DNA from: Marivita hallyeonensis
Lineage (GTDB): Bacteria; Pseudomonadota; Alphaproteobacteria; Rhodobacterales; Rhodobacteraceae
Assembly: GCF_900129875.1 (NCBI RefSeq)
Contig: NZ_FQXC01000003.1
Coordinates: 434,001-498,000 of the forward strand
Reading direction: 5' to 3'
Length of the DNA: 64,000 nt
This document shows positions 16,759 through 61,007 of this stretch, piece by piece. Under the pieces are notes generated by a model. It worked only from the letters and a program-made list of their open reading frames with translations. It made no database searches and was not told the origin of the DNA. The translations under genes and the position numbers were made by a program. Position 1 is the first letter of the stretch. Every line of letters starts with the position of its first letter.

Positions 16759-17487
16759 TTAGGCAGCCTTTGCAACGCGCGCTAGAACGGTGACACAAAT
16801 ATCTCGGGCCTGTGCGGTATGGCATGCCAATGCGCACGCACCGAGAGTCGCGCCAGACGTCATCACGTCGTCGACGAGCAGTACGGGGCGTCCCGCAAGG
16901 CGATGCCCTTCGCGCGGATGCGGTCGGATGGCGTCGGACAGCGCCTGAAAACGGGCTTCACGCGATGCCCCGTCCAGAGACGGCGTCCTGCACGGCCGCG
17001 TAAGCGCTGTCGGCGCGTATTCCAGACATAGACGACGCGCAATCACTTGGGCCAGCAAAGCGGATTGATTGTAGCGGCGTCGCAGAAGGCGGGTGATGTG
17101 CAACGGCACTGGCACCACAAGCGTGTCGGCATCCATGGACCGCGGCAGCGCGCCAACCATCCAGGCAGCGGCCATGGTTACGATGTCATGCCTGTCCCCG
17201 TGTTTCAGCGCGAGCACAAGCTTTCGTGCGACGCCTTCATAGCGCAGCGGTGCATAGCCGTGCTGCCACGGACGGGCAAGGGAAATGCAATCGTCGCAAT
17301 GCTCGTCAATGTCGGATGTGCCCGGTAGGGGCACGCCGCAGGACGTGCAGGTCAATCCGGTGATAAACGGAGTTTCGGCGAAACAAGCGGCACATAGACC
17401 GTTATCCTGTTCGACAAGGCCGCCGCACGCGAGACAGCGGGGCGGGTATATGACCCGCAGCGCGGTTTGCAATCCCGTGGTCAGCAC
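16759..17487 (-). CDS. comF: ComF-family phosphoribosyltransferase-like protein
   Basis: ComF homologues are needed for DNA uptake in competent bacteria; in others their role is unclear. The protein has an N-terminal zinc region with Cys pairs CLAC, CAAC and CTSC followed by CDDC. The C-terminal phosphoribosyltransferase fold carries the PRPP-binding motif VLLVDDVMTSGATL. I chose GTG (242 residues), preceded by GGCGGGA. A longer frame would run into the divergent neighbour, whose start lies only 14 bases away. Confidence 0.88.
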   Translation of the reverse strand: MLTTGLQTALRVIYPPRCLACGGLVEQDNGLCAACFAETPFITGLTCTSCGVPLPGTSDIDEHCDDCISLARPWQHGYAPLRYEGVARKLVLALKHGDRHDIVTMAAAWMVGALPRSMDADTLVVPVPLHITRLLRRRYNQSALLAQVIARRLCLEYAPTALTRPCRTPSLDGASREARFQALSDAIRPHPREGHRLAGRPVLLVDDVMTSGATLGACALACHTAQARDICVTVLARVAKAA

Positions 17488-17501
17488 CCTATTTCCCGCC
17501 C

Positions 17502-18323
17502 ATGTCCGATGCCCCCAAACTGACCGACCGAAAAGCGCTCGACATGCATCGTGCGCGGATACCCGGCTCCGATGCGCTTTTCCTGCACGAAGAAGCCTTG
17601 GCCGATGTGCAGGATCGCGTCTCATTGGTTAAGAAAGAGTTTCACTCGATCACGATCATCAGCCCCTTTCCCGAGGTCTGGCGCGATGCTTTCCCAAATG
17701 CACGCCTCATCGACGACACCGACGTTCTGGACCTGACAGAAAGCAGCTGCGACCTGATCGTGCACGCGATGGCACTGCACTGGGCGAATGATCCAGTGGG
17801 TCAGCTTATTCAGTGCCGACGCGCGCTTAAGCCCGACGGCCTCTTGCTTGTCGTGATGCTTGGCGGCCAAACGTTGCATGAATTGCGGGCGAGCCTGGGG
17901 CAGGCGGAAAGCGATGTGACCGGAGGGCTGTCGCCCCGCGTCGCGCCGATGGGAGAGATTCGTGATCTTGGCGCCTTGCTACAGCGAGCCGGGCTGGCTT
18001 TGCCCGTGGCCGACAGCGCTGTTCTGAAGACAAGCTACGCGTCACCGCTTCACCTGATGCGCGACCTGCGTGCGATGGGAGAGACCAATGCGCTCCATGC
18101 ACGGATCCGGTCGATGACGCGGCGAGATGTGCTGCTGCGGGCCGCGCAGATTTATGTCGACACGTTCGCGGATGCAGATGGCCGCGTGCCCGCGACGTTC
18201 GAACTGATCACGCTCACCGGATGGGCGCCGGACGCGTCCCAGCCGCAGCCCTTGCGCCCTGGTTCCGCATCACAGCGGCTTGCCGATGCCCTGAATACCG
18301 TTGAGACACCACTGAAAGATTGA
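17502..18323 (+). CDS. NDUFAF5-like (BioC-type) methyltransferase-fold protein lacking SAM motif I
   Basis: The 273-residue protein resembles human NDUFAF5, a complex I assembly factor that hydroxylates an arginine of NDUFS7, and more distantly BioC. Shared segments are LIVHAMALHWANDPVGQLIQ, ALKPDGLLLVVMLGG and GGLSPRVAPMGEIRDLGALL. The glycine-rich SAM motif I normally preceding these is absent: the region reads SITIISPFPEVWRDAF. Either SAM is bound differently or catalysis has been lost. It is divergent from comF, and hemH follows on the same strand after 57 bases. Confidence 0.75.
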   Translation: MSDAPKLTDRKALDMHRARIPGSDALFLHEEALADVQDRVSLVKKEFHSITIISPFPEVWRDAFPNARLIDDTDVLDLTESSCDLIVHAMALHWANDPVGQLIQCRRALKPDGLLLVVMLGGQTLHELRASLGQAESDVTGGLSPRVAPMGEIRDLGALLQRAGLALPVADSAVLKTSYASPLHLMRDLRAMGETNALHARIRSMTRRDVLLRAAQIYVDTFADADGRVPATFELITLTGWAPDASQPQPLRPGSASQRLADALNTVETPLKD

Positions 18324-49829: not shown

Positions 49830-50735
49830 CTAGCGCCCGGCGCTCAACACGGCGCAGAGAGAATCCAGGTCTTCCAGGGTCTCGTATGTGATCGTGACCG
49901 CTCCAGATTCCTTGCCGGCATGGTGATTGATCGACACGTTCATGCCCAAAGCTGCAGACAGATCGCCCTCTAAAGCCTTCGTATCCGCGTCCTTGCTTCC
50001 GCTCGAAGACGTGCCCTTGGCCTTCGCAGGTTTCTCGGCACGCGGGTTCTGAGCATCCTTGACCAGTTTTTCGGTTTCGCGCACAGACAGCCCGCGACGC
50101 ACGATATCACCGGCAAGCAACACCGGGTCTGGGGCGGTCACCAGTGCACGCGCATGTCCGGCGGACAATTTACCATCCTGAACCGCCTTCTTCACAACAT
50201 CCGGCAGCGTAAGAAGCCGCAAAAGGTTGGCGATGTGGCTCCGGCTTTTGCCCAGCGCCTGCGCAAGTTTTTCCTGCGTATGCCCAAATCGCGACATGAG
50301 CTGTTCGTAGCCAGCCGCTTCTTCAATCGCATTCAAATCAGCACGTTGAATGTTTTCGATAATCGCGATCTCAAGCACGTCCTCGTCGGAAAACTCCCGG
50401 ACGACCACCGGCACGTCATGCACACCGGCCGCCTGCGCCGCGCGCCAACGGCGTTCTCCCGCGACGATCTCATAGGCGTCTGTTTCGCCCGCTTTCGGTC
50501 GAACGATCAGCGGCTGAATCACGCCCTTGCTTTTGATCGACGCCTTGAGCTCATCCAGCGCATCGGCATCAAAGTGACGCCGCGGCTGATCGGGGTTCGG
50601 AAACAACTGTTCAACGGGAAGCGTGCGACTTGGTCGTGCGGCTGCCTGCCCTGCCTCTGCATTGGGTTCGATGTCGGCCATCAAGGCCGACAGACCGCGC
50701 CCCAGTCCGCGTCGTTGTTCTTTTTTCTCGGCCAT
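49830..50735 (-). CDS. parB: Chromosome-partitioning protein ParB
   Basis: CTP-dependent DNA clamp that loads at parS and spreads. 301 residues. The N-terminus KEQRRGLGRGLSALM binds ParA. The CTPase region has VRPKAGETDAYEIVAGERRWRAAQAAG, and the helix-turn-helix is EKLAQALGKSRSHIANLLRLL. The C-terminal dimer domain reads NHHAGKESGAVTITYETLEDLDSL. Last gene of the mnmE-mnmG-rsmG-parA-parB operon, converging with hemW with one base between. Its binding sites lie in the same operon. Confidence 0.96.
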   Translation of the reverse strand: MAEKKEQRRGLGRGLSALMADIEPNAEAGQAAARPSRTLPVEQLFPNPDQPRRHFDADALDELKASIKSKGVIQPLIVRPKAGETDAYEIVAGERRWRAAQAAGVHDVPVVVREFSDEDVLEIAIIENIQRADLNAIEEAAGYEQLMSRFGHTQEKLAQALGKSRSHIANLLRLLTLPDVVKKAVQDGKLSAGHARALVTAPDPVLLAGDIVRRGLSVRETEKLVKDAQNPRAEKPAKAKGTSSSGSKDADTKALEGDLSAALGMNVSINHHAGKESGAVTITYETLEDLDSLCAVLSAGR

Positions 50736-50744
50736 TCCTGTGTC

Positions 50745-51557
50745 CTATGCTGCTGTCATCGCGTCGCGTCTGCCCAAAAACTCGCGCGCCAAAGACCTGT
50801 ACGCGAGCGCGCCTTTGGAATTCGTGTCGTAGGCCAGAACCGGCACCGCGTAAGACGGAGCCTCACTCACACGGACGTTCCGGGGAATCACCGTCTGGAA
50901 CACCAGATCCCCAAGGTTTTCGCGCGCGTCCATCTCGACCTGTTGGGACAGATTATTTCGCGAGTCATACATCGTCAGGACCACCCCCTCGATCCGAAGG
51001 TTGGGGTTCGCGGTCTGACGCACCTCCCGGATGGTCAGCATTAACTGACTCAATCCTTCAAGCGCAAAGAATTCACTCTGCAGCGGCACCAGCACCGAAT
51101 GCGCGGCGACCATGGCGTTTACGGTCAAGAGGTTTAGCGACGGCGGACAGTCGATCAGGATGTAATCGAACATGAATTGGTCGATATCCGTTTGCCGCAA
51201 CGCGTCATGCAGCAGAAAACTGCGCTTTTCATTTGCGATCAGCTCAATATCCGCAGAACTCAGATCGGTGGTCGAAGGCACGATGCTTAAGTTCTTTTGC
51301 TCCGTCCGGCAAATGATGTCTGCTAGCGGGAAGTCGTCCAAAAGAAGATCGTAGGTCGTAGCCCGGCGGTCTTCCGGCATGATGCCAAGCCCCGTGGACG
51401 CATTTCCCTGCGGGTCAAGATCGACAAGCAGCACATTCTGCCCAATCTCTGCCAAAGCGGAGGCAAAATTGATCGCGGTCGTGGTCTTGCCAACGCCGCC
51501 TTTCTGGTTGGCGATTGCGATGATCTTTGGTCCGGACGGACGCGTCGGGTCATGCAC
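50745..51557 (-). CDS. parA: Chromosome-partitioning ATPase ParA
   Basis: 270-residue deviant-Walker ATPase that drives movement of ParB-parS. Walker A KGGVGKTTT at residues 19-27, with the signature Lys, is followed by NVLLVDLDPQGNASTGLG and ILIDCPPSLNLLT. The start is GTG, preceded by GGAGAG, and overlaps the rsmG stop by eight bases. parB follows after nine bases. Confidence 0.96.
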   Translation of the reverse strand: MHDPTRPSGPKIIAIANQKGGVGKTTTAINFASALAEIGQNVLLVDLDPQGNASTGLGIMPEDRRATTYDLLLDDFPLADIICRTEQKNLSIVPSTTDLSSADIELIANEKRSFLLHDALRQTDIDQFMFDYILIDCPPSLNLLTVNAMVAAHSVLVPLQSEFFALEGLSQLMLTIREVRQTANPNLRIEGVVLTMYDSRNNLSQQVEMDARENLGDLVFQTVIPRNVRVSEAPSYAVPVLAYDTNSKGALAYRSLAREFLGRRDAMTAA

Positions 51558-52143
51558 GTGAAAGCTCTCCGATCTCCAAAATCACGGCCTCTGGGCTTGT
51601 CTCACTTGTATGTGTTTGGAGGCTGAATCGCCACTTCTTTTGTGCGGTTTTCACTTCGTCTACCCACTTTGCACCCTTTGGAAACAGCGCCGTTCCATCT
51701 TTGTGCAAATGCCGTTCGGCAAACGTACAAAGGTCGGTGAGAGGCGCCAAGGCGCGGGCGCTCAGCATGTCAGCCTTCAAGGGTGCAACGTCTTCTATGC
51801 GTTTAGCGATGACATTGAAGGGCACGGATGTTTCACGTGAAACACTCCGTAGAAACGCGCATTTCCTTTGATCGCTTTCGACCAGGGTCATCGAAAGATC
51901 CGGTCTTTCTTCCGCAAGAACAATAGCCACGACAGCACCTGGGAACCCACCACCGGACCCGAGATCAACCCATGTTTTCGCGCTTTCCTTGCAAAGACGG
52001 GCCAGCTGAATGGAATCCGCGAAATGACGCGACCTGGCATCCTTTAAGGACGCAGGGGACACAAGGTTGATTTTCTTGGACCATTTTTTAAGAAGCTCAA
52101 GATAGGTTGCGAGGCGCTCAGATGTTTCACGTGAAACATTCAT
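51550..52143 (-). CDS. rsmG: 16S rRNA (guanine-N7)-methyltransferase RsmG
   Basis: Methylates G527 of 16S rRNA. 197 residues with [23 protein letters not shown] and the SAM motif [11 protein letters not shown]. Two perfect parS palindromes lie inside the gene and are read as the peptide VSRET, once at residues 3-7 and once in [10 protein letters not shown]. The ATG overlaps the mnmG stop by four bases. Confidence 0.95.
51829..51844. promoter_or_regulatory. parS site 1 (ParB binding)
   Basis: TGTTTCACGTGAAACA, a perfect 16-base palindrome identical to the bacterial parS consensus. It lies within rsmG, about 1.1 kb from the parB start. Confidence 0.95.
52123..52138. promoter_or_regulatory. parS site 2 (ParB binding)
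   Basis: A second perfect copy of TGTTTCACGTGAAACA, covering codons 2-7 of rsmG, a few bases from the mnmG stop. Confidence 0.95.
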
Positions 52144-54023
52144 CCAGCTTCTCGCAGGTTTTCGCTCTTGGATCGAAGGCGCGACAGGATGAGGAGCAAA
52201 GCTGAGGGCGTCATGCCATCAATCCGCGACGCCTGGGCAATATTCGAGGGTTGAGACGCCCTGAGCTTTTGCTTGAGCTCATTAGAAAGACCTTCGATCG
52301 CATCAAAATCGAACGCACCCGGAATAAGACGCGCTTCATCACGCTGCAAAGCTTCAATATCTTTTCGCTGTCGCTCTATGTAGTTTGCATACAAAGCGTC
52401 CTTCGATAACTGGTCGCGGGTTTTGTCGTCCACATCTGTTAGCGAGGGATCGATATGGGTGAGCACATCCCACGACACCGCCTCTATCGCCAATGCTTCA
52501 AAGCCCGTGCGGCAACTTCCGTCCTTGGCAACGGCAACTCCAGCGGAAATCAGATCTTTTGGAGTGACCGACAGCGCGTCCAAACGATCCCGCGCCTCAT
52601 TGATCGTTGACATCTTCGCGTCGAACGCAAACTTCCGCTCTTCGGAAAGACAGCCCAAAGCTTCGGCCAATGGCGTCAAGCGCTGGTCCGCGTTGTCAGC
52701 GCGAAGTGACAGACGATATTCAGCGCGGGATGTAAACATACGATAGGGTTCCGCCACTCCGCGCGATGTCAGGTCGTCAATCATCACACCGATATAGCTG
52801 TCAGCCCGGCTGAAAAAGACAGGATCGAGTGATTTGGCACGACGAGCGGCATTCAATCCGGCCACAAGCCCTTGCGCCGCTGCTTCTTCGTACCCGGTCG
52901 TTCCATTGATCTGGCCAGCGAGGTACAGCCCATCGCAGGCTTTAAGCGACAGATCGAGGTTCAACGCCCGCGGATCAACGTAGTCGTATTCAATCGCGTA
53001 TCCGGGTTGCAGGATCTCGGCGTTTTCCAAGCCTGCGATAGACCGGACATACTCGATCTGCACCTCTTCCGGCAGAGATGTCGAGATCCCGTTCGGGTAC
53101 ACCGTATGATCGTCCAGACCCTCTGGCTCAAGAAAGATTTGGTGCGAGGATTTGTCGGCGAACCGTACGATCTTGTCCTCGATCGATGGACAATATCGCG
53201 GCCCCACGCCTTCGATATGCCCACCATACATGGCTGACCGGTCCAGATTGTCGCGAATGATCTCGTGTGTGCGGTCATTTGTATGCGTGATGGCGCAGGA
53301 CACCTGCCTCGCTGTCGGCGCGTCGGACAGGAAAGAGAACATCGTCGGGTCATCATCTCCTGGCTGAGCCTCTAGTTCATCCCATCTGATCGTGCGACCA
53401 TCGAGGCGTGGTGGCGTTCCGGTTTTCAGCCGCCCAAGCGGCAGGTCAAACGCATCCAAACGCTTTGCTAGCTTCATGGAGGGTTTTTCACCCATCCGCC
53501 CACCGGCGATTTGTCTGTCCCCAATGTGGATGACGCCCCGCAAGAAGGTGCCCGTCGTAAGAACAACAGAATGCGCAGTGACGGTCTGATCCCCATCAAT
53601 CACCACACCGCTTACATTATTGTCGTCGATGACCAGGTCGGTGACTTCGCCCACCAGGATCGACAGGTCCTTCCGTGACTTCGTTTCTGCAAGCATCTCA
53701 CGCTGGTAGATCTTTCGATCCGCCTGTGCCCGCGGGCCTTGTACCGCCGGCCCCTTGCGACGGTTGAGCAAACGGAATTGGATACCGGCCTTATCCGCAA
53801 CGCGACCCATGACCCCGTCAAACGCATCGATCTCGCGAACAAGGTGCCCTTTTCCCAACCCGCCGATAGCCGGGTTGCACGACATCACGCCGATGCCAGC
53901 TTCTGAGAGTGTGACAAGTGCTGTCTTGGCACCAAGCCGCGCGGCAGCATGCGCCGCTTCGCAGCCCGCATGACCACCACCGACAACGATGACATCGAAA
54001 TCAAATTGTTTCACGTGAAACAC
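52140..54023 (-). CDS. mnmG: tRNA uridine-5-carboxymethylaminomethyl modification enzyme MnmG (GidA)
   Basis: FAD enzyme that, with MnmE, installs the cmnm5 group on U34 of tRNA. 627 residues as drawn. FAD-binding [34 protein letters not shown] and [11 protein letters not shown] are family motifs. The first codon is GTG with the purine-rich GAGGA touching it, which is too close. Codon 4 is also GTG (54014) with nine bases of spacing and may be the true start. The N-terminal FHVKQ is encoded by a parS site. Confidence 0.95.
54007..54022. promoter_or_regulatory. parS site 3 (ParB binding)
   Basis: A third perfect TGTTTCACGTGAAACA, lying across the mnmG start region and read there as FHVKQ. It is about 2.6 kb from the candidate origin. 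Confidence 0.95.
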
Positions 54024-54026
54024 TCC

Positions 54027-55310
54027 TCACTTTCCGATGCAGAAGCTGGAAAACACCTTATCTAGCACGTCTTCTACATCTACACGACCTACGAGTCGTT
54101 CAAGAGCAAACACAGCGGCACGAAGTTCCTCGGACGCAAGATCATAGAATTCCGGACCTTTGTCAGCAAAGGTCAAAGCTTCTGCCAGATGCGACCGCGC
54201 GCGTATCACGACGTCTTTCTGTCGGTCATGCGAGACCAAACCCGCCCCTGTCGCGCGGTCCTGCAAGACGCGCTTCACATTAGAAATCAGCTCGGGAATA
54301 CCCTGACCCGTCTTGCCGGACACACCAGTTCCGTCGTCCGTCAGATCGGATTTGGCCTGAACAACCAGGTCACCATCTTGTTTTTGGACCTGAGACACCT
54401 CTCCAGACCCGGCCAGAAAAACCCGGAGGTCGGCTCGGCTGGCCCGGTCCACTGCCCGCTGAATTCCTTTCGCCTCGATCACGTCCTCGGTGTCGCGGAG
54501 ACCGGCGGTATCCAGAAACGTGACCGGGAGACCGTCGAGGTCCATTCTGACTTCGATCACATCTCGTGTTGTCCCGGCAATTTCCGACGTAATCGCCGCT
54601 TCACGACCCGCCAAGGCATTGAGCAAGGTAGATTTTCCTGCATTAGGAGGCCCGACAATCGCCACTTCGAAGCCGGTCCGCACACGTTCAGCAATCGAAA
54701 ACCCCGAAATCTCTCGATCAAGATCGTTGGATACCCGCCCGAGCAAGGCTGACACGTCCAACGACACGTCGACTGGCACCTCCTCATCCGCGAAGTCAAT
54801 CGTGGCCTCAAGCAGGGACAAGGCGTGAATCAAATCCGTCCGCCATGTTTCGGCCGCGTCACGCAGGCGGCCGGAAAAGCCAGATAACGCCTGCTTCCGC
54901 TGCATTTCGGTTTCGGCATCAATCAAGTCCGACAGTGCTTCGACCTGTGTGAGATCAAGCCGTCCGTTGTCCAAGGCACGACGGGTGAACTCTCCTGGCT
55001 CCGCTGTTCGAAACCCATCCACGTCCGACAGACAGGTCAGAACTGCCTGAGCAATGGCAATGCTGCCATGTAAATGGAACTCGACAACCGGTTCCCCCGT
55101 AAAGCTTGCGCCCTCTGCAAAGGTCAGAACCAACGCTTCATCAAGGAAACCATGATCCTTGTGAACCAGACGCCGCAAGGCGGTGCGGCGCGGTGGCACA
55201 GGTTCGAAACCAAACAGTCGGCAGCTTTCAAAGGCCTGGGCCCCGGAAACCCGCACCACGGCAACGCCTGATTTGCCTGGAACAGTGGCCAGCGCGAAGA
55301 TGGTGTCCAT
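54027..55310 (-). CDS. mnmE: tRNA modification GTPase MnmE (TrmE)
   Basis: Partner of MnmG in U34 modification. 427 residues: N-terminal tetrahydrofolate-binding domain (FALATVPGKSGVAVVRVSG), a helical domain, and an inserted GTPase with G1 GPPNAGKST near residue 220, G3 DTAGLRDTED and a C-terminal FCIGK containing the catalytic Cys. The stop TGA runs directly into the mnmG start region. The gene follows rho by 21 bases. Confidence 0.95.
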   Translation of the reverse strand: MDTIFALATVPGKSGVAVVRVSGAQAFESCRLFGFEPVPPRRTALRRLVHKDHGFLDEALVLTFAEGASFTGEPVVEFHLHGSIAIAQAVLTCLSDVDGFRTAEPGEFTRRALDNGRLDLTQVEALSDLIDAETEMQRKQALSGFSGRLRDAAETWRTDLIHALSLLEATIDFADEEVPVDVSLDVSALLGRVSNDLDREISGFSIAERVRTGFEVAIVGPPNAGKSTLLNALAGREAAITSEIAGTTRDVIEVRMDLDGLPVTFLDTAGLRDTEDVIEAKGIQRAVDRASRADLRVFLAGSGEVSQVQKQDGDLVVQAKSDLTDDGTGVSGKTGQGIPELISNVKRVLQDRATGAGLVSHDRQKDVVIRARSHLAEALTFADKGPEFYDLASEELRAAVFALERLVGRVDVEDVLDKVFSSFCIGK

Positions 55311-55331: not shown

Positions 55332-56600
55332 TTACGAGTTCATCGAATCGAAGAATTCCGAGTTCGTTTTAGTCTGCTTGAGTTTCGAAATCAGGAATTC
55401 GATGGCATCGGTGGTGCCCATCGGGTTGAGAATACGACGAAGCACGAAGGTCTTCTGCAAATCAATCTTGTCGACCAGCAGGTCTTCTTTCCGCGTGCCG
55501 GACTTCAGAATGTCCATCGCCGGGAAGACGCGCTTGTCCGCCACCTTGCGATCCAGAACGATTTCAGAGTTACCCGTACCTTTGAATTCCTCAAAGATCA
55601 CCTCGTCCATGCGGCTGCCCGTATCGATCAGCGCTGTGGCGATGATGGTGAGAGAACCGCCCTCTTCGATGTTCCGCGCCGCACCAAAGAAACGCTTGGG
55701 TCGCTGAAGTGCGTTGGCGTCCACACCACCGGTGAGAACTTTGCCCGAGGACGGAACCACGGTGTTGAAAGCTCTACCAAGTCTTGTGATAGAGTCGAGA
55801 AGAATAACAACATCTCGTTTATGTTCGACAAGACGCTTTGCTTTCTCGATCACCATCTCGGACACGGCAACGTGGCGTGTTGCGGGTTCGTCAAATGTGG
55901 AGGACACGACCTCACCCTTCACGGAACGCTGCATGTCGGTGACTTCTTCCGGGCGTTCGTCGATGAGAAGAACGATCAGATAGCATTCAGGGTGATTGCG
56001 TTCGATGGAATGCGCGATGTTTTGCATCAACACCGTCTTACCGGTCCGGGGCGGCGCCGTGATCAGCGCACGCTGACCTTTTCCGATGGGCGCGACAAGG
56101 TCGATAATGCGGGCCGAGCGATCCTTGATCGTCGGGTCCTCGATTTCCATCTTGAGACGCTCGTCGGGATAAAGCGGTGTCAGGTTGTCGAAGGCGATCT
56201 TGTGACGGGCGCGTTCCGGCTCTTCGAAATTGATCTGGCTGCAATTCATCAGCGCGAAGTACCGCTCGTTGTCTTCCGGCGCCTTGATTTCTCCGTCGAT
56301 GGTGTCGCCCGTGCGGAGCGAAAACTTGCGGATCATTTCAGGCGAGACATAGATGTCATCAGGACCCGGCAGGTAGTTTGCCTCTGGTGAGCGCAGAAAG
56401 CCAAACCCGTCCTGGAGAACCTCCAACACACCATCCCCGAAGATCTGCCATCCCTCATCCGCGCGTTCGCGCAGGATTTGGAACATGATCTCGCCCTTAC
56501 GCATCGTAGACGCGTTTTCGATCTCGAGCTCTTCGGCCATCGCCAAAAGGTCTTTGGGGCTTTTTGCCTTCAAATCGGCAAGGTTCAGTTTTTCACTCAT
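55332..56600 (-). CDS. rho: Transcription termination factor Rho
   Basis: RNA-dependent ATPase hexamer that ends transcription. 422 residues from the ATG that gives [18 protein letters not shown]. The RNA-binding domain is at about 50-120 ([23 protein letters not shown]), and the P-loop APPRTGKT lies near 180. [32 protein letters not shown]-type motifs are present (I see ERPEEVTDM). The start faces the candidate origin; the site upstream (GGGA) is modest. Confidence 0.95.
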
Positions 56601-56720
56601 GGAAAATCCCGGACCGCACGGTTGGAGCGGTCTCATCTATGTGGTCTTTGGAAGGTCACATCCAGAACTGGAGTGTGCTGCTCTTAGCGGAGGGGCCGAA
56701 CCCTGTCAAACATCCCTGTC

Positions 56721-56771
56721 TTTCTAAATAAAAGATAAAGAAAGAAAGGATTTTGATTTTTGTAGAAAGAA
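56721..56771. other. A+T-rich block, possible DNA unwinding element
   Basis: 41 of 51 bases are A or T, with purine-rich runs such as AAAGATAAAGAAAGAAAGG followed by TTTTGATTTTT. The surroundings are GC-rich. It lies directly left of the DnaA-box-like cluster, the arrangement expected for a duplex-unwinding element. Confidence 0.6.
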
Positions 56772-56779
56772 GGGCGTCC

Positions 56780-56788
56780 TGTGGATTT
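56780..56788 (-). promoter_or_regulatory. DnaA-box-like sequence
   Basis: TGTGGATTT on the plus strand; two mismatches to TGTGGATAA, both at the last two bases. Confidence 0.45.
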
Positions 56789-56835
56789 CGGAATTGTCCT
56801 CGACTTATTCAAGGGGCTGCGCATCAAAGAAGTGT

Positions 56836-56844
56836 CGTGGACAA
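56836..56844 (-). promoter_or_regulatory. DnaA-box-like sequence
   Basis: CGTGGACAA on the plus strand; two mismatches to TGTGGATAA. Confidence 0.4.
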
Positions 56845-56857
56845 ACGGGAGGACAAA

Positions 56858-56866
56858 TGTGGGTAA
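56858..56866 (-). promoter_or_regulatory. DnaA box
   Basis: TGTGGGTAA on the plus strand, which is TTACCCACA on the other; one mismatch to the TTATCCACA box. Confidence 0.65.
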
Positions 56867-56967
56867 TCGGCCGAGCACTCGAAAATCTAAGCGTTTCGGC
56901 ATGGGACAACTCTGTGCACTCTTCAAAAGAGCTGGGGACAGATCGCACTGCTTTGGGGTTTTCCAAG

Positions 56968-56989
56968 TCATCCACTTATCCTTTCCACA
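56968..56989 (+). promoter_or_regulatory. Tandem DnaA-box-like cluster
   Basis: TCATCCACT at 56968, a TTATCC core at 56976 and CTTTCCACA at 56981 follow one another almost without spacing. Each complete 9-mer has two mismatches to TTATCCACA. Confidence 0.5.
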
Positions 56990-57103
56990 TGCTAAAAACC
57001 GGTGTGACTGAGTTGGGACAGAAAGGATAACCCATCCTTCCCTTGCGGCTGCTCGTGGTTTTCCGCAAATCGTTCAGGGCAATGCCCCGGTTTGTCCAAG
57101 GAG

Positions 57104-57112
57104 TTTTCCACA
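57104..57112 (+). promoter_or_regulatory. DnaA box at the maf start codon
   Basis: TTTTCCACA, one mismatch to TTATCCACA. Its last base is the A of the maf ATG. Confidence 0.55.
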
Positions 57113-57711
57113 TGAATCTTGATCTTGTCCTCGCTTCCGGGTCCGAAATCCGCGCGGACCTGCTTCGTAACGCGGGGCTGCGATTCGATGTGGCGGTCGC
57201 GCGAATCGATGAAGACGCTGTGCGCCAGGCCCTGGAAGCAGAAGACGCCCCGCCCCGGGATATCGCCGATACATTGGCCGAGATGAAAGCACGGAAAGTG
57301 TCTGACAAAATGCCAGGTGCGCTTGTCCTTGGCTGCGATCAGGTTCTGGCCTTGGGTAAAACCATCTTTGCCAAGCCGCGTGACAAAGACGAAGCGCGCG
57401 TTCAGCTGCAACATCTTCGCAATCAGTCCCACACGTTGCTGTCTGCCGCGGTTCTTTATGAGAACGGCGAACCGAAATGGCGGCACGTGGGTGTTGTGCG
57501 TCTGAGAATGCGGGACTTCTCGGACGCCTATCTTGAAGCCTACCTCGACCGGAACTGGGACAGCGTGCAGAACTCAGTTGGGGCTTACAAACTTGAAGAA
57601 GAAGGCGCGCGGCTGTTTACGCAGGTGCAAGGCGACTATTTCACCGTGCTTGGACTTCCGTTACTGGAACTCCTGAACCACCTGACCCTGACCGGACGGA
57701 TCGACGGATGA
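57112..57711 (+). CDS. maf: Maf-family nucleotide pyrophosphatase
   Basis: Hydrolyses modified or canonical NTPs; Maf proteins are linked to cell-division arrest and pool cleaning. 199 residues starting MNLDLVLASGSEIRADLL, with the conserved Asp in LVLGCDQVLAL and the region SVGAYKLEEEGARLF. The GCDQ form suggests the YceF-like branch rather than the dTTPase branch (which has AADT). AAGGAG precedes the ATG. The gene is first in a rightward operon with aroE, coaE and dnaQ. Confidence 0.92.
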   Translation: MNLDLVLASGSEIRADLLRNAGLRFDVAVARIDEDAVRQALEAEDAPPRDIADTLAEMKARKVSDKMPGALVLGCDQVLALGKTIFAKPRDKDEARVQLQHLRNQSHTLLSAAVLYENGEPKWRHVGVVRLRMRDFSDAYLEAYLDRNWDSVQNSVGAYKLEEEGARLFTQVQGDYFTVLGLPLLELLNHLTLTGRIDG

Positions 57712-58541
57712 GTGATACGAGAATTCCACTGGCGGGTGTGATCGGGCATCCGATTGCACATTCGAAAAGCCCTCATCTGCACGGCTACTGGATTCGCAAA
57801 TATGGCTTGAAGGGGCATTACATCCCCATCGACATCGCGCCCGAAAAGATTGCCGATCTCTTGCCGCGTTTGGCAGACCTCGGCTTCGTGGGCGCGAACG
57901 TGACCATCCCTTATAAGGAAAAGGTGATGGAGCTTGCCGATCTAATCACCGATCGGGCGACGCTAATCGGGGCGGCGAATACGCTGATCTTTCGCAAGGA
58001 TGGCCGGATCCATGCCGACAACACGGATGGCTATGGTTTCATTGAAAATATCCGCCAGACGATCCCGGATTGGAACCCGAAAACCGGACCGGCCGTGGTC
58101 TTTGGGGCTGGCGGCGCGGCGCGGGCGGTCATCGCTTCTTTGCTTGATGTAGGTGTGCCGAAGATCCTGCTGACCAATCGCACCCGCATTCGAGCCGAGA
58201 AGCTGCGCGAGGATTTCGGTCACCGCATTCAGGTCGTGGAATGGGTGCAGGCCGGGAATGTGTTGGAAGAAGCCGATCTCGTGGTTAATACCACATCTTT
58301 GGGCATGGTCGGAAAACCAGAGATGCGCGTGCCACTGGACGGGCTCAGGCGCGGTGCGATTGTGAACGATCTGGTCTATACGCCGCTGCGGACGCGATTG
58401 CTGACAGAGGCGGAAAAGAACGGTTGCCGCGTTGTCGATGGCGTCGGGATGTTGCTGCATCAGGCGGTGCCCGGATTCGAACGCTGGTTCGGGAAACGGC
58501 CTGTCGTTGACGAAAACGCCCGCGCGGCGGTTCTCAGGTGA
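57708..58541 (+). CDS. aroE: Shikimate dehydrogenase
   Basis: NADPH-dependent reduction of dehydroshikimate in the aromatic pathway. 277 residues with the shikimate-binding HSKSPHLHG, catalytic Lys in NVTIPYKEK, DNTDGYG and the nucleotide loop GAGGAARA. It overlaps maf (ATGA) and coaE (GTGA) by four bases each. Confidence 0.95.
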   Translation: MSDTRIPLAGVIGHPIAHSKSPHLHGYWIRKYGLKGHYIPIDIAPEKIADLLPRLADLGFVGANVTIPYKEKVMELADLITDRATLIGAANTLIFRKDGRIHADNTDGYGFIENIRQTIPDWNPKTGPAVVFGAGGAARAVIASLLDVGVPKILLTNRTRIRAEKLREDFGHRIQVVEWVQAGNVLEEADLVVNTTSLGMVGKPEMRVPLDGLRRGAIVNDLVYTPLRTRLLTEAEKNGCRVVDGVGMLLHQAVPGFERWFGKRPVVDENARAAVLR

Positions 58542-59131
58542 CATTCAAGTTGGGTTTGACCGGGTCGATTGGCATGGGCAAATCGACCACTGCGCAGATG
58601 TTTGCGGAAGCGGGATGCGCGGTCTGGGATGCAGACGCGGCGGTGCATCGATTGTATGCTAAGGGCGGTGTAGCAGTCGCTGCGATTGAAGCGCAGTTTC
58701 CTGACGCGGTCACGGACGGCGCCGTGGATCGTACGGCGTTGCGTGCGCTGATTTCAGAAGATCCGACGGTACTGAAAGCATTGGAGCAGATCGTTCATCC
58801 TTTAGTGCGGGAAGATCGCGAGACGTTTGCCGCCAATCAGGACTCAGAAATCGTTGTTTTCGACATTCCGCTGCTTTTCGAGACCGGCGCCGAGAAAGAG
58901 ATGGACGCGGTTGCATGTGTCACTGTCTCACCGGAACTTCAGGAAAAACGCGTTCTGCAGCGCGGTACGATGACGAAAGACCAGTTCCTGGCGATCAGGG
59001 CGAAGCAGATGCCGAACGATGAAAAATGTGCTCGCTCTGATTTTGTGATCACAACTGAGACACTTGAAGATGCGCGCCGTCAGGTCCACGATGTGATCGA
59101 GCAGATACGGGGCAAGCTTAGCGATGCGTGA
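58538..59131 (+). CDS. coaE: Dephospho-CoA kinase
   Basis: Last step of coenzyme A synthesis. 197 residues from GTG. Walker A GLTGSIGMGKST near the N-terminus, DADAAVHRLY, and IVHPLVREDRE are family motifs. It overlaps aroE by four bases and dnaQ by eight. Confidence 0.94.
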   Translation: MTFKLGLTGSIGMGKSTTAQMFAEAGCAVWDADAAVHRLYAKGGVAVAAIEAQFPDAVTDGAVDRTALRALISEDPTVLKALEQIVHPLVREDRETFAANQDSEIVVFDIPLLFETGAEKEMDAVACVTVSPELQEKRVLQRGTMTKDQFLAIRAKQMPNDEKCARSDFVITTETLEDARRQVHDVIEQIRGKLSDA

Positions 59132-59813
59132 GATCGTTCTCGACACGGAAACCACCGGATTCGAACCGGAACAAGGCGATCGTATCGTCGAAATCGGTGC
59201 GGTGGAATTGTTCAACCACGTTCCGACTGGGAAGACATACCATCAATATATCAACCCCGAACGCGCGATGCCCCAGGAGGCGTTCGAGGTCCACGGCCTT
59301 GGCGATGATTTCCTGCGGGATAAGCCGCTTTTTGCTGACATTGCGCAGGCTTTCGTGGATTTCGTCGGCGATGCAAAGCTTGTGATTCACAACGCTGCCT
59401 TCGATATGAAATTTATCAACGCAGAACTTGGCTGGTTGAAGCGTCCGGCGATTCCTTTTGACCGGGCGATTGACACGTTGGCGATTGCGCGGCGCAGGTT
59501 TCCGGGGTCACCGGCATCGCTTGATGCGCTTTGCCGGCGGTTCGGGATCGATAACTCTGCGCGGACGCTGCATGGCGCCTTGCTCGACTCCGAGATTCTT
59601 GCCGAGGTCTATCTTGAATTGATCGGTGGCAAGCAGCCGGACTTCGGGCTGAACGTCGCACAGGGCAAATCTGACGGTGACGACAAAGCCGCGGATTGGC
59701 GTCCTCAGCCGCGACAGGCACCTTTGCCCTCTCGGATTTCTGAAACGGAAAAGGCGGCTCACGCCGCCTTTGTCGATCGCCTTGGTGATGAAGCGCTGTG
59801 GAAGCGTCTTTGA
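59124..59813 (+). CDS. dnaQ: DNA polymerase III epsilon subunit (3'-5' proofreading exonuclease)
   Basis: 229-residue DEDDh exonuclease. Catalytic residues are Asp7 and Glu9 in LDTETTG, Asp in HNAAFDMKF and the final His/Asp in HGALLDSEI. The C-terminal part (after about residue 180) should bind the alpha subunit. Conserved order aroE-coaE-dnaQ supports the assignment. It converges on secB with three bases between. A hairpin inside its last codons probably serves the opposite gene. Confidence 0.94.
   Translation: MREIVLDTETTGFEPEQGDRIVEIGAVELFNHVPTGKTYHQYINPERAMPQEAFEVHGLGDDFLRDKPLFADIAQAFVDFVGDAKLVIHNAAFDMKFINAELGWLKRPAIPFDRAIDTLAIARRRFPGSPASLDALCRRFGIDNSARTLHGALLDSEILAEVYLELIGGKQPDFGLNVAQGKSDGDDKAADWRPQPRQAPLPSRISETEKAAHAAFVDRLGDEALWKRL
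59749..59771 (-). terminator. Terminator of secB nested in the dnaQ coding sequence
   Basis: AAAGGCGGC, loop, GCCGCCTTT: a 9-bp stem and 4-base loop. On the minus strand the stem is followed by TTTTCC, 45 bases after the secB stop. It is read as codons on the plus strand, so the terminator role is inferred for secB only. Confidence 0.55.
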
Positions 59814-59816
59814 CGC

Positions 59817-60335
59817 TTAAGCGTTCGCTGTCTCGGACTGCTTCGCCTGCGCGCGGCGTGCGAGCTCGGTGCGGTAAAGCTGAAGGAAATCAATAGTCTC
59901 GAGGTTCAGCGGCGGGAACCCACCGTCGCGCGTGACGTCGCTTACAATGCGGCGCACAAACGGGAAGAGCATCCGCGGGCATTCGATCAGCAGGAACGGA
60001 TGCAATTGCTCATCCGGCACGTTTTCGACGTGGAAGACGCCAGCATATTCCAGCTCAATCACGAAAAGTGTGTCGCCGCTTTCGCGGGCTTTCGATGTGA
60101 CCTGAATCTTCAGGATCACCTCGTACTGGTTTTCGACCGTCCGCTTTTTCGCATCGAGGTTCACCTGAACCTGCACGTCGGGTTGAACGTCGCCCTGCAC
60201 GCCTTTTTGCGCGAGGATGTTCTCGAATGACATGTCACGCACAAACTGCGCGAGCACGTTCATCTTTACCGGTGTCGGTTGTGCGGCGGCGCCGTTGGCG
60301 TTGGCGTCTGGTGCGGTTTCTGGCGTATCTGCCAT
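59817..60335 (-). CDS. secB: Protein-export chaperone SecB
   Basis: Tetrameric chaperone that delivers unfolded precursors to SecA. 172 residues from an ATG preceded by AGGGAG. The core FVRDMSFENI, ECPRMLFPFVRRIVSDVTRDGGFPPLNLETIDF is highly typical. An Ala/Pro-rich extension of about 25 residues precedes it, as in other alphaproteobacteria. Confidence 0.96.
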   Translation of the reverse strand: MADTPETAPDANANGAAAQPTPVKMNVLAQFVRDMSFENILAQKGVQGDVQPDVQVQVNLDAKKRTVENQYEVILKIQVTSKARESGDTLFVIELEYAGVFHVENVPDEQLHPFLLIECPRMLFPFVRRIVSDVTRDGGFPPLNLETIDFLQLYRTELARRAQAKQSETANA

Positions 60336-60402
60336 CTTTTCTCTCCCTGGGATCGCGGGTTCATTCAAATCCCGCGCTGCATAACAGCCGCTGCGCAGAG
60401 CC

Positions 60403-60903
60403 TCAATGCTTGGTCCACCCCGATCCTTGATGTGTCGGCTTTTTGGTTTCCGTCACGTCCCGGAAGTCGCCGTCAATCACCGTATCGCGCGGTTGCGGAC
60501 GGGGTTGGGGATCGCGCCGAAACGGATCGGGCTCTGGACCCATCTCGAACCGCTGCACCTTGATCCGCTTTTTCAGATATGAAATCAGCGTCAGTCGCAC
60601 AGGCGGTGTCAAAAGGGCAAAGCCGACGGCGTCAGTGAAGAACCCGGGCGTGAGCAGCAATGCACCCGCGATCAAAATCATTGCGCCATGAGCCAGCGGC
60701 TCGGACGGATCTTCCAGGCGCGAGAATGATCCACGCAGGTTGTTGATCGCCATCACCCCCTGCGATCGCACAAGAAAGGTGCCCAGAATCGCTGTAAGAA
60801 CGACGATTCCCAGCGTTGGCCACAAGCCAATCCACCCTCCGACCTGAATGAACAAACCGATCTCGATCAAAGGGACGAGCAAAAAAGCCACAAACAGCCA
60901 CAT
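60403..60903 (-). CDS. fxsA: FxsA-family membrane protein
   Basis: 166 residues from an ATG preceded by AAAGGAG. Membrane segments are at about 1-22 (MWLFVAFLLVPLIEIGLFIQV), 26-46 (LWPTLGIVVLTAILGTFLV) and 70-95 (ALAHGAMILIAGALLLTPGFFTD-like). FxsA of Escherichia coli overrides F-plasmid exclusion of phage T7; the native role is unknown. A basic, proline-rich cytoplasmic tail follows. Divergent from the Tim44-like gene. Confidence 0.88.
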   Translation of the reverse strand: MWLFVAFLLVPLIEIGLFIQVGGWIGLWPTLGIVVLTAILGTFLVRSQGVMAINNLRGSFSRLEDPSEPLAHGAMILIAGALLLTPGFFTDAVGFALLTPPVRLTLISYLKKRIKVQRFEMGPEPDPFRRDPQPRPQPRDTVIDGDFRDVTETKKPTHQGSGWTKH

Positions 60904-61007
60904 TTCGGAAGACTCCTTTCGACGGGCGTGCGGTGGACTATGCATCACCCAACACCTACATAAGGATGCAACGAAGACGTTTCCACTTTGGTCTGGGCGA
61001 GGTCCTG

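Follow-up and report, generated by a model that had tools for sequence, protein, structure and literature searches.

Where does replication of the chromosome start in this Marivita species, and is it at the stretch between rho and maf that a preliminary description had put forward as a candidate origin? We analyzed a window of 64,000 nucleotides, corresponding to bases 434001-498000 of contig C13 (726 kb), in a genome of 4.19 Mb distributed over 20 contigs. Full-length Maf matches titled Marivita are the nearest named relatives, with 77-86% identity. The position of the gap, its conservation, the enrichment of motifs, the minimum of the cumulative skew and the location of the parS sites were all computed here. 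The proposal is supported by a cluster of DnaA boxes, an A+T-rich element, the parS sites, the skew minima and a gene order similar to that of the Caulobacter origin (Cori), lines of evidence that are largely independent and in agreement. On this basis, it is very probable that the rho-maf gap is the chromosomal replication origin (oriC) of the species. It appears to be an ordinary oriC typical of the family and not of a new kind, an assignment that the sequence supports well.

The gap separates two divergent gene sets (Table 1), with parB, parA, gidB, gidA, mnmE and rho reading leftward and maf, aroE, coaE and dnaQ reading rightward, the name dnaQ being one that we presume from the position of the gene. 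The claim that genes on both sides run away from the gap holds through parB and dnaQ but not for secB and fxsA (59817-60948), which lie past dnaQ and are oriented back toward it. The interval had been given as 56601-57112, which is correct except for the last base, as 57112 already belongs to maf, being the A of its start codon. It had also been called the sole gene-free stretch of more than 300 bases in the window, and this holds when a crude gene call is combined with Pfam matches. The rough codon-model call leaves four nominal gaps above 300 bp, among which the rho-maf gap measures 406 bp since the longest ORFs are taken. It is the only gene-free one because the other three contain genes by Pfam match, namely an ORF at 16759-17625, RNase PH from 47369, and GidB (51550-52143). 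The first of these, overlooked by the rough gene call, shows double zinc ribbon and phosphoribosyltransferase matches and is presumably ComF-like.

Table 1. Features of the rho-maf locus, in window positions.
Feature	Position	Strand	Remarks
parB	49830..50735	-	
parA	50745..51557	-	
gidB/rsmG	51550..52143	-	
parS core, exact 14-mer	51830..51843	.	inside gidB/rsmG; C13:485830-485843
parS core, exact 14-mer	52124..52137	.	start of gidB/rsmG; C13:486124-486137
gidA/mnmG	52140..54023	-	
parS core, exact 14-mer	54008..54021	.	start of gidA/mnmG; C13:488008-488021
mnmE/trmE	54027..55310	-	
rho	55332..56600	-	start at 56600
Candidate oriC, gap without genes from rho to maf	56601..57111	.	511 bp; box enrichment in 78 orthologous regions
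Likely rho promoter	56681..56709	-	TTGACA (56704-56709), 17-bp spacer, TAAGAG (56681-56686)
Likely unwinding element (DUE), A+T-rich	56708..56771	+	ends TAG-AAA-GAA (56763-56771)
DUE-side DnaA-like box AAATCCACA	56780..56788	-	two mismatches to TTATCCACA
DnaA box TTACCCACA	56858..56866	-	one mismatch
Two weak DnaA-like sites TCATCCACT, CTTTCCACA	56968..56989	+	over element CTTATCC-TTTCCACA
Weak DnaA-like site TTTTCCGCA	57059..57067	+	
maf-side DnaA box TTTTCCACA	57104..57112	+	one mismatch; last base shared with maf start codon
maf	57112..57711	+	start at 57112
aroE	57708..58541	+	
coaE	58538..59131	+	
dnaQ-like exonuclease	59124..59813	+	Pfam RNase_T match

The candidate origin adjoins parS and parAB, as expected for a bacterial chromosomal oriC. 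The 4.19-Mb genome contains three exact parS cores, all located 2.6-4.8 kb left of the gap, and allowing one mismatch adds none. In the nine relatives searched (six of the same genus and three of the same family), the exact cores, two or three per genome, are all no more than about 6 kb away from maf. The parS cores of the window fall in coding sequence, two in gidB and one at the start of gidA (51830-54021).

Over 664 kb of C13, the cumulative GC skew has its minimum at window position 55620, about 1 kb from the gap. The best mean-shift point is found at window position -52000, 108 kb left of the gap, with a bootstrap interval of -392 to +217 kb, and is not significant, its strength being reached by 322 of 2000 block permutations. 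On this part of the genome, the GC-skew check named with the original proposal agrees with it in the cumulative minimum, but the mean-shift point, itself not significant, falls elsewhere. In densely covered blocks from two relatives, the skew minimum of a 399-kb stretch of G019 is 2.0 kb away from maf; that of a 360-kb stretch of G029 is 17.9 kb away, with an only slightly higher value at maf itself. Whole-chromosome skew was also fitted from 20 sampled stretches in each of three relatives. The resulting ranges contain maf in G029 (1.16-1.20 Mb) and in G025 (2.68-2.92 Mb, with the best fit 113 kb off), and the fit for G019 missed maf by 158 kb.

In many bacteria, oriC is found beside dnaA, which here lies at about 606.9 kb of C13, 116 kb to the right. 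The true origin could be located there, leaving the rho-maf gap as a regulatory region with DnaA boxes; this would fit the arrangement common in bacteria, and the skew of the contig itself is noisy. We regard this as extremely unlikely, as the cumulative minimum is at window position 55620 and not near 172.9 kb, every parS is on the rho-maf side, and within 10 kb of dnaA neither an A+T block nor a box cluster matches the strength of those in the gap. The nearest box cluster, at 187.4 kb, is inside a 702-aa ORF and was dropped as a rival origin. In all three relatives, moreover, dnaA is beyond the skew-supported origin range. It is 216 kb from maf in G029 and 310 kb in G025; in G019, about 81 kb separate the two genes across the ends of the record, dnaA falls beyond the coarse range, and all four 20-kb stretches from maf to dnaA show positive skew. 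A dnaA gene 116 kb from the origin is an allowed arrangement, not the textbook one. As a separate observation, contig C1 of G029 carries, besides dnaA, 14 matches to the DnaA ATPase family, alike in score and above the cut-off of the family, spread along the chromosome, which may be, we presume, copies of the ATPase of a mobile element (IstB-like).

The gap has an A+T content of 50.5%, compared to 40.9% for the window. The block of 80% A+T that had been noticed in it is confirmed: the top 50 bp, from 56719, represent the maximum of the window and one of four such places in 664 kb of the contig. The A+T-rich block as a whole is the likely unwinding element, a function that we infer. In an alignment of 13 Marivita gaps, including the one studied here, 112 of 517 columns are invariant. 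The longest invariant run, conserved in 13/13, is TGTGGATT (56780-56787), right beside the A+T block. Both cores of the TTGACA-17-TAAGAG motif also fall within runs invariant in all 13, and this motif is likely the rho promoter, although a consensus scanner reported none. The element over the two weak DnaA-like sites is invariant in part (TATCC, CACA).

The run of DnaA-box-like sequences in the gap turns out to be weaker than first stated. It contains no perfect box (TTATCCACA) and two one-mismatch sites, on the minus strand at 56858-56866 and on the plus strand at 57104-57112. The window as a whole has seven one-mismatch sites against 5.84 expected by chance, an ordinary total, so that the sites are notable only in their placing. 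With a DnaA matrix trained on 179 sites from non-Marivita relatives, four to six hits are obtained in the gap, depending on the threshold, and one to three other 512-bp places in 664 kb are equally or more densely populated. Rfam gave no match in 56300-57400, and the folding of the DNA strand of the gap (z of -1.79) revealed nothing specific. A pattern TGTAG-N10..14-CTGTGGAT has one match in the genome and was given no weight, because it was derived from the window and, by our estimate, fewer than one match would arise by chance.

The box cluster becomes clear when orthologous loci are compared. We assembled 81 loci, 80 from a genome collection and the one studied here, of which 78 have both rho and maf matches; the three without a rho match (L021, L041, and L067) were excluded from every gap count. 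The region counted is the last 540 bp or less before the aligned maf start, a position that is not ATG in 11 of the 78. In 53 loci, rho is separated from the boxes by a UPF0093 gene (PF03653), which we take to be hemJ, and the counted region there takes in some of its coding sequence. With at most one mismatch, 220 boxes are found in 41.9 kb of pre-maf sequence and 233 in 1213 kb of flanks (78 loci, including ours), corresponding to densities of 5.26 and 0.19 per kb and to a 27-fold enrichment. At least one such site is present in 77 of the 78 pre-maf regions. The perfect box TTATCCACA occurs in 37 of them and is absent from the 1.21 Mb of flanks. Shuffling the pattern 60 times returned TTATCCACA itself once; the highest score among the others was 32, and the 60 averaged 11.4. 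As features of an oriC, the locus has an intergenic DnaA box cluster, enriched 27-fold at the level of the family and weak in the copy of the window, and an A+T-rich element; as in the maf-type oriC of Rhodobacteraceae, maf is directly adjacent.

A box with at most one mismatch sits exactly on the maf start in 60/78 loci, 20 of them perfect. This overlap with the maf start codon, together with the conserved TTGACA-17-TAAGAG motif before rho, would suit an ordinary divergent promoter region in which the conserved blocks serve as promoters and leaders of rho and maf and the DnaA boxes regulate both genes. As a replacement for oriC, such a region is very unlikely, since it leaves unexplained the skew minima, parS, the layout of the unwinding element and the 27-fold enrichment taken together; it can hold in addition to oriC.

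The relatives' gaps have a recurring layout. In the left half, an A+T tract is followed by a GAT-type repeat ending in TAG, a short spacer, and a leftward box, often CTGTGGATTA. In the right half, a second A+T-rich segment precedes a CTTATCC-type element and a rightward box ending on the first base of the maf start. Averaged over the 65 regions of sufficient length, A+T content has maxima around positions -380 and -240 relative to maf, and the second A+T-rich segment inside the box array is seen in L016, L017, L039, and L053 (Ruegeria), among others. In the origin of Escherichia coli, the unwinding element occupies one end next to a leftward box, and the opposite end has a rightward box. The gap studied here seems alike in this overall layout, although it is longer, with weaker boxes and other neighbors.

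The repeat is strand-specific: GATGATGAT is found 25 times on the plus strand, in 20 of the 78 loci, and never on the minus strand, with 0.2 expected. GATGAT occurs 76 times in the 78 regions, compared to 27.5 expected. A strict pattern, TAG-N9..16-TGTGG[AG]T, is present in 34 regions and absent in that form from 44, and its two controls, with N17..24 spacing and with GAT-N9..16, each match 13/78. A looser pattern of the unwinding module, which has no control, is present in 65/78. The published search rule for DnaA-trios (PMC8287927) takes a DnaA box with at most two mismatches, a spacer of 0-16 and at least three NAN trios. This rule fits at 56780, with a two-mismatch box, a spacer of 8 and the three trios TAG-AAA-GAA (56763-56771); it is a loose rule, with three hits in the gap versus 0.093 expected per 512 bp. 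We take the fit as suggestive only, because of this looseness and because the GAT repeat is opposite to the consensus trio. Compared to the basal unwinding system as that source presents it, in Bacillus subtilis and in a broad survey (PMC8287927), the locus shares the two-mismatch box, the short spacer and central-A trinucleotides on the proper strand. It differs in that 20/78 loci have GATGATGAT read 5' to 3', and not the consensus 3'-GAT-5' runs. We found no paper joining Rhodobacteraceae, oriC, and the DnaA-trio; the supplementary lists of the survey were outside this search, and we do not claim that the repeat is unreported.

A broader reading of these patterns is possible but doubtful. 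Rhodobacteraceae origins would share a family-specific unwinding module in which an A+T tract is followed by a strand-specific GAT repeat that terminates in TAG and, after a spacer of about 13 bp, by a leftward DnaA box. Besides this module, they would have a second A+T-rich segment among the boxes and a DnaA box fused to the start codon of maf. The GAT repeat would then be a variant DnaA-trio in reverse letter order, initiation and maf expression would be coupled through the maf-fused box, and Marivita, including the window, would have a degenerate form. Two parts deserve specialist attention, namely the GAT repeat and the box fused to maf.

DnaA binding, unwinding, initiation and segregation at the gap, as we infer them, could proceed as follows. 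DnaA would occupy the boxes between 56780 and 57112, a span of about 330 bp, and the minus-strand box nearest the A+T block (56780-56788) would position a DnaA filament on one strand of 56708-56771. This block would open, and the helicase would be loaded there. Of the two forks, one would move leftward, in the reading direction of rho-mnmE-gidAB-parAB, and the other rightward, in that of maf-aroE-coaE-dnaQ. The new origins would then be separated by ParB bound at the three parS sites, which lie 2.6-4.8 kb left of the gap. Placing the origin here would define the zero point of a draft Marivita genome and, with it, its replichores, and the conserved unwinding module would provide a concrete target for the biochemistry of DnaA opening in a marine alphaproteobacterial family.

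The location agrees with published assignments for the family. A genome report on Ketogulonicigenium vulgare Hbe602, citing DoriC, describes oriC next to maf as conserved in Rhodobacteraceae (PMC4793288). As given there, that origin belongs to the same family, is intergenic, lies directly before maf and was predicted with DnaA boxes; it is from another genus, and in Marivita the gap directly borders rho for lack of an intervening hemJ, as in 25/78 loci. Another study reports oriC assigned in 101 Rhodobacteraceae strains and not in eight, using Ori-Finder and manual curation by skew, local GC, and parAB (PMC6699656). For alphaproteobacteria at large, Cori of Caulobacter crescentus was mapped between hemE and COG1806/CC0001 and described in 2007 as the only origin of the class identified experimentally (PMC1914354). 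The neighborhood shared with a known alphaproteobacterial origin, part of the initial argument, is borne out by a gene order homologous to that of Cori. With Cori as described in that report, the locus shares a homologous neighborhood in which divergent gene sets enclose several DnaA boxes and an A+T-rich region (about 40 bp). It differs in not being flanked by hemE and ppsR and in having neither a CtrA TTAA-N7-TTAA pair nor an IHF consensus in the gap.

Some of the loci compared have ppsR next to maf. The order hemE-[1-4 boxes]-ppsR-maf, with the boxes in the interval to which Cori was mapped, is present in L137, L138, and L139, from other families, and in L135 of the same family, and hemJ-[boxes]-ppsR-maf is present in L134 and L136. 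Thus, in three loci of the same family (L134, L135, and L136), ppsR still stands between the box cluster and maf, and L135 keeps hemE in a Caulobacter-like order. In 61 genomes, ppsR (PF03618) is found in 14: 11/24 from other families, 3/20 from the same family outside the genus and 0/17 in the genus, including the one studied here, whose genome gave no ppsR/COG1806 match (PF03618). Its hemE is on contig C20, away from the locus. The gene taken as hemJ is missing from the locus in all 13 Marivita; since one UPF0093 match lies elsewhere in the genome (C13:281319-281732, 85.8 bits), it may have moved rather than gone. The window carries the locus in its most reduced form, rho-oriC-maf. This suggests a route in which a Cori-type neighborhood lost hemE, ppsR, and hemJ while the origin stayed between rho and maf.

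A box cluster without a perfect box, as in this species, could also be a DnaA-titrating or DnaA-recycling site, presumably datA/DARS-like, instead of an origin. The chance of this is close to negligible considering the position homologous to Cori, the A+T element and trio-like repeat beside a box in many relatives, and the skew and parS evidence, all of which favor oriC.

Caulobacter-type CtrA control was considered and rejected: over the 78 regions, TTAA-N7-TTAA gives seven hits, N10 also gives seven, and the other spacings from N2 to N12 give none to three. The gap of the window contains no TTAA, hence no pair of exact half-sites. The IHF consensus has 10 hits in 10/78 regions versus a mean of 1.6 (maximum of 4) in single-base shuffles, and a reversed-order control has four hits versus 2.0; IHF sites are perhaps real in some relatives, but the gap of the window has none. 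GANTC does not occur in the gap, where 0.9 would be expected, and its density is 3.2 per kb in the 78 pre-maf regions versus 1.8 in the flanks. Over the whole window (1-64000), this CcrM-type site is strongly depleted, with 114 occurrences versus 342 expected from shuffles.
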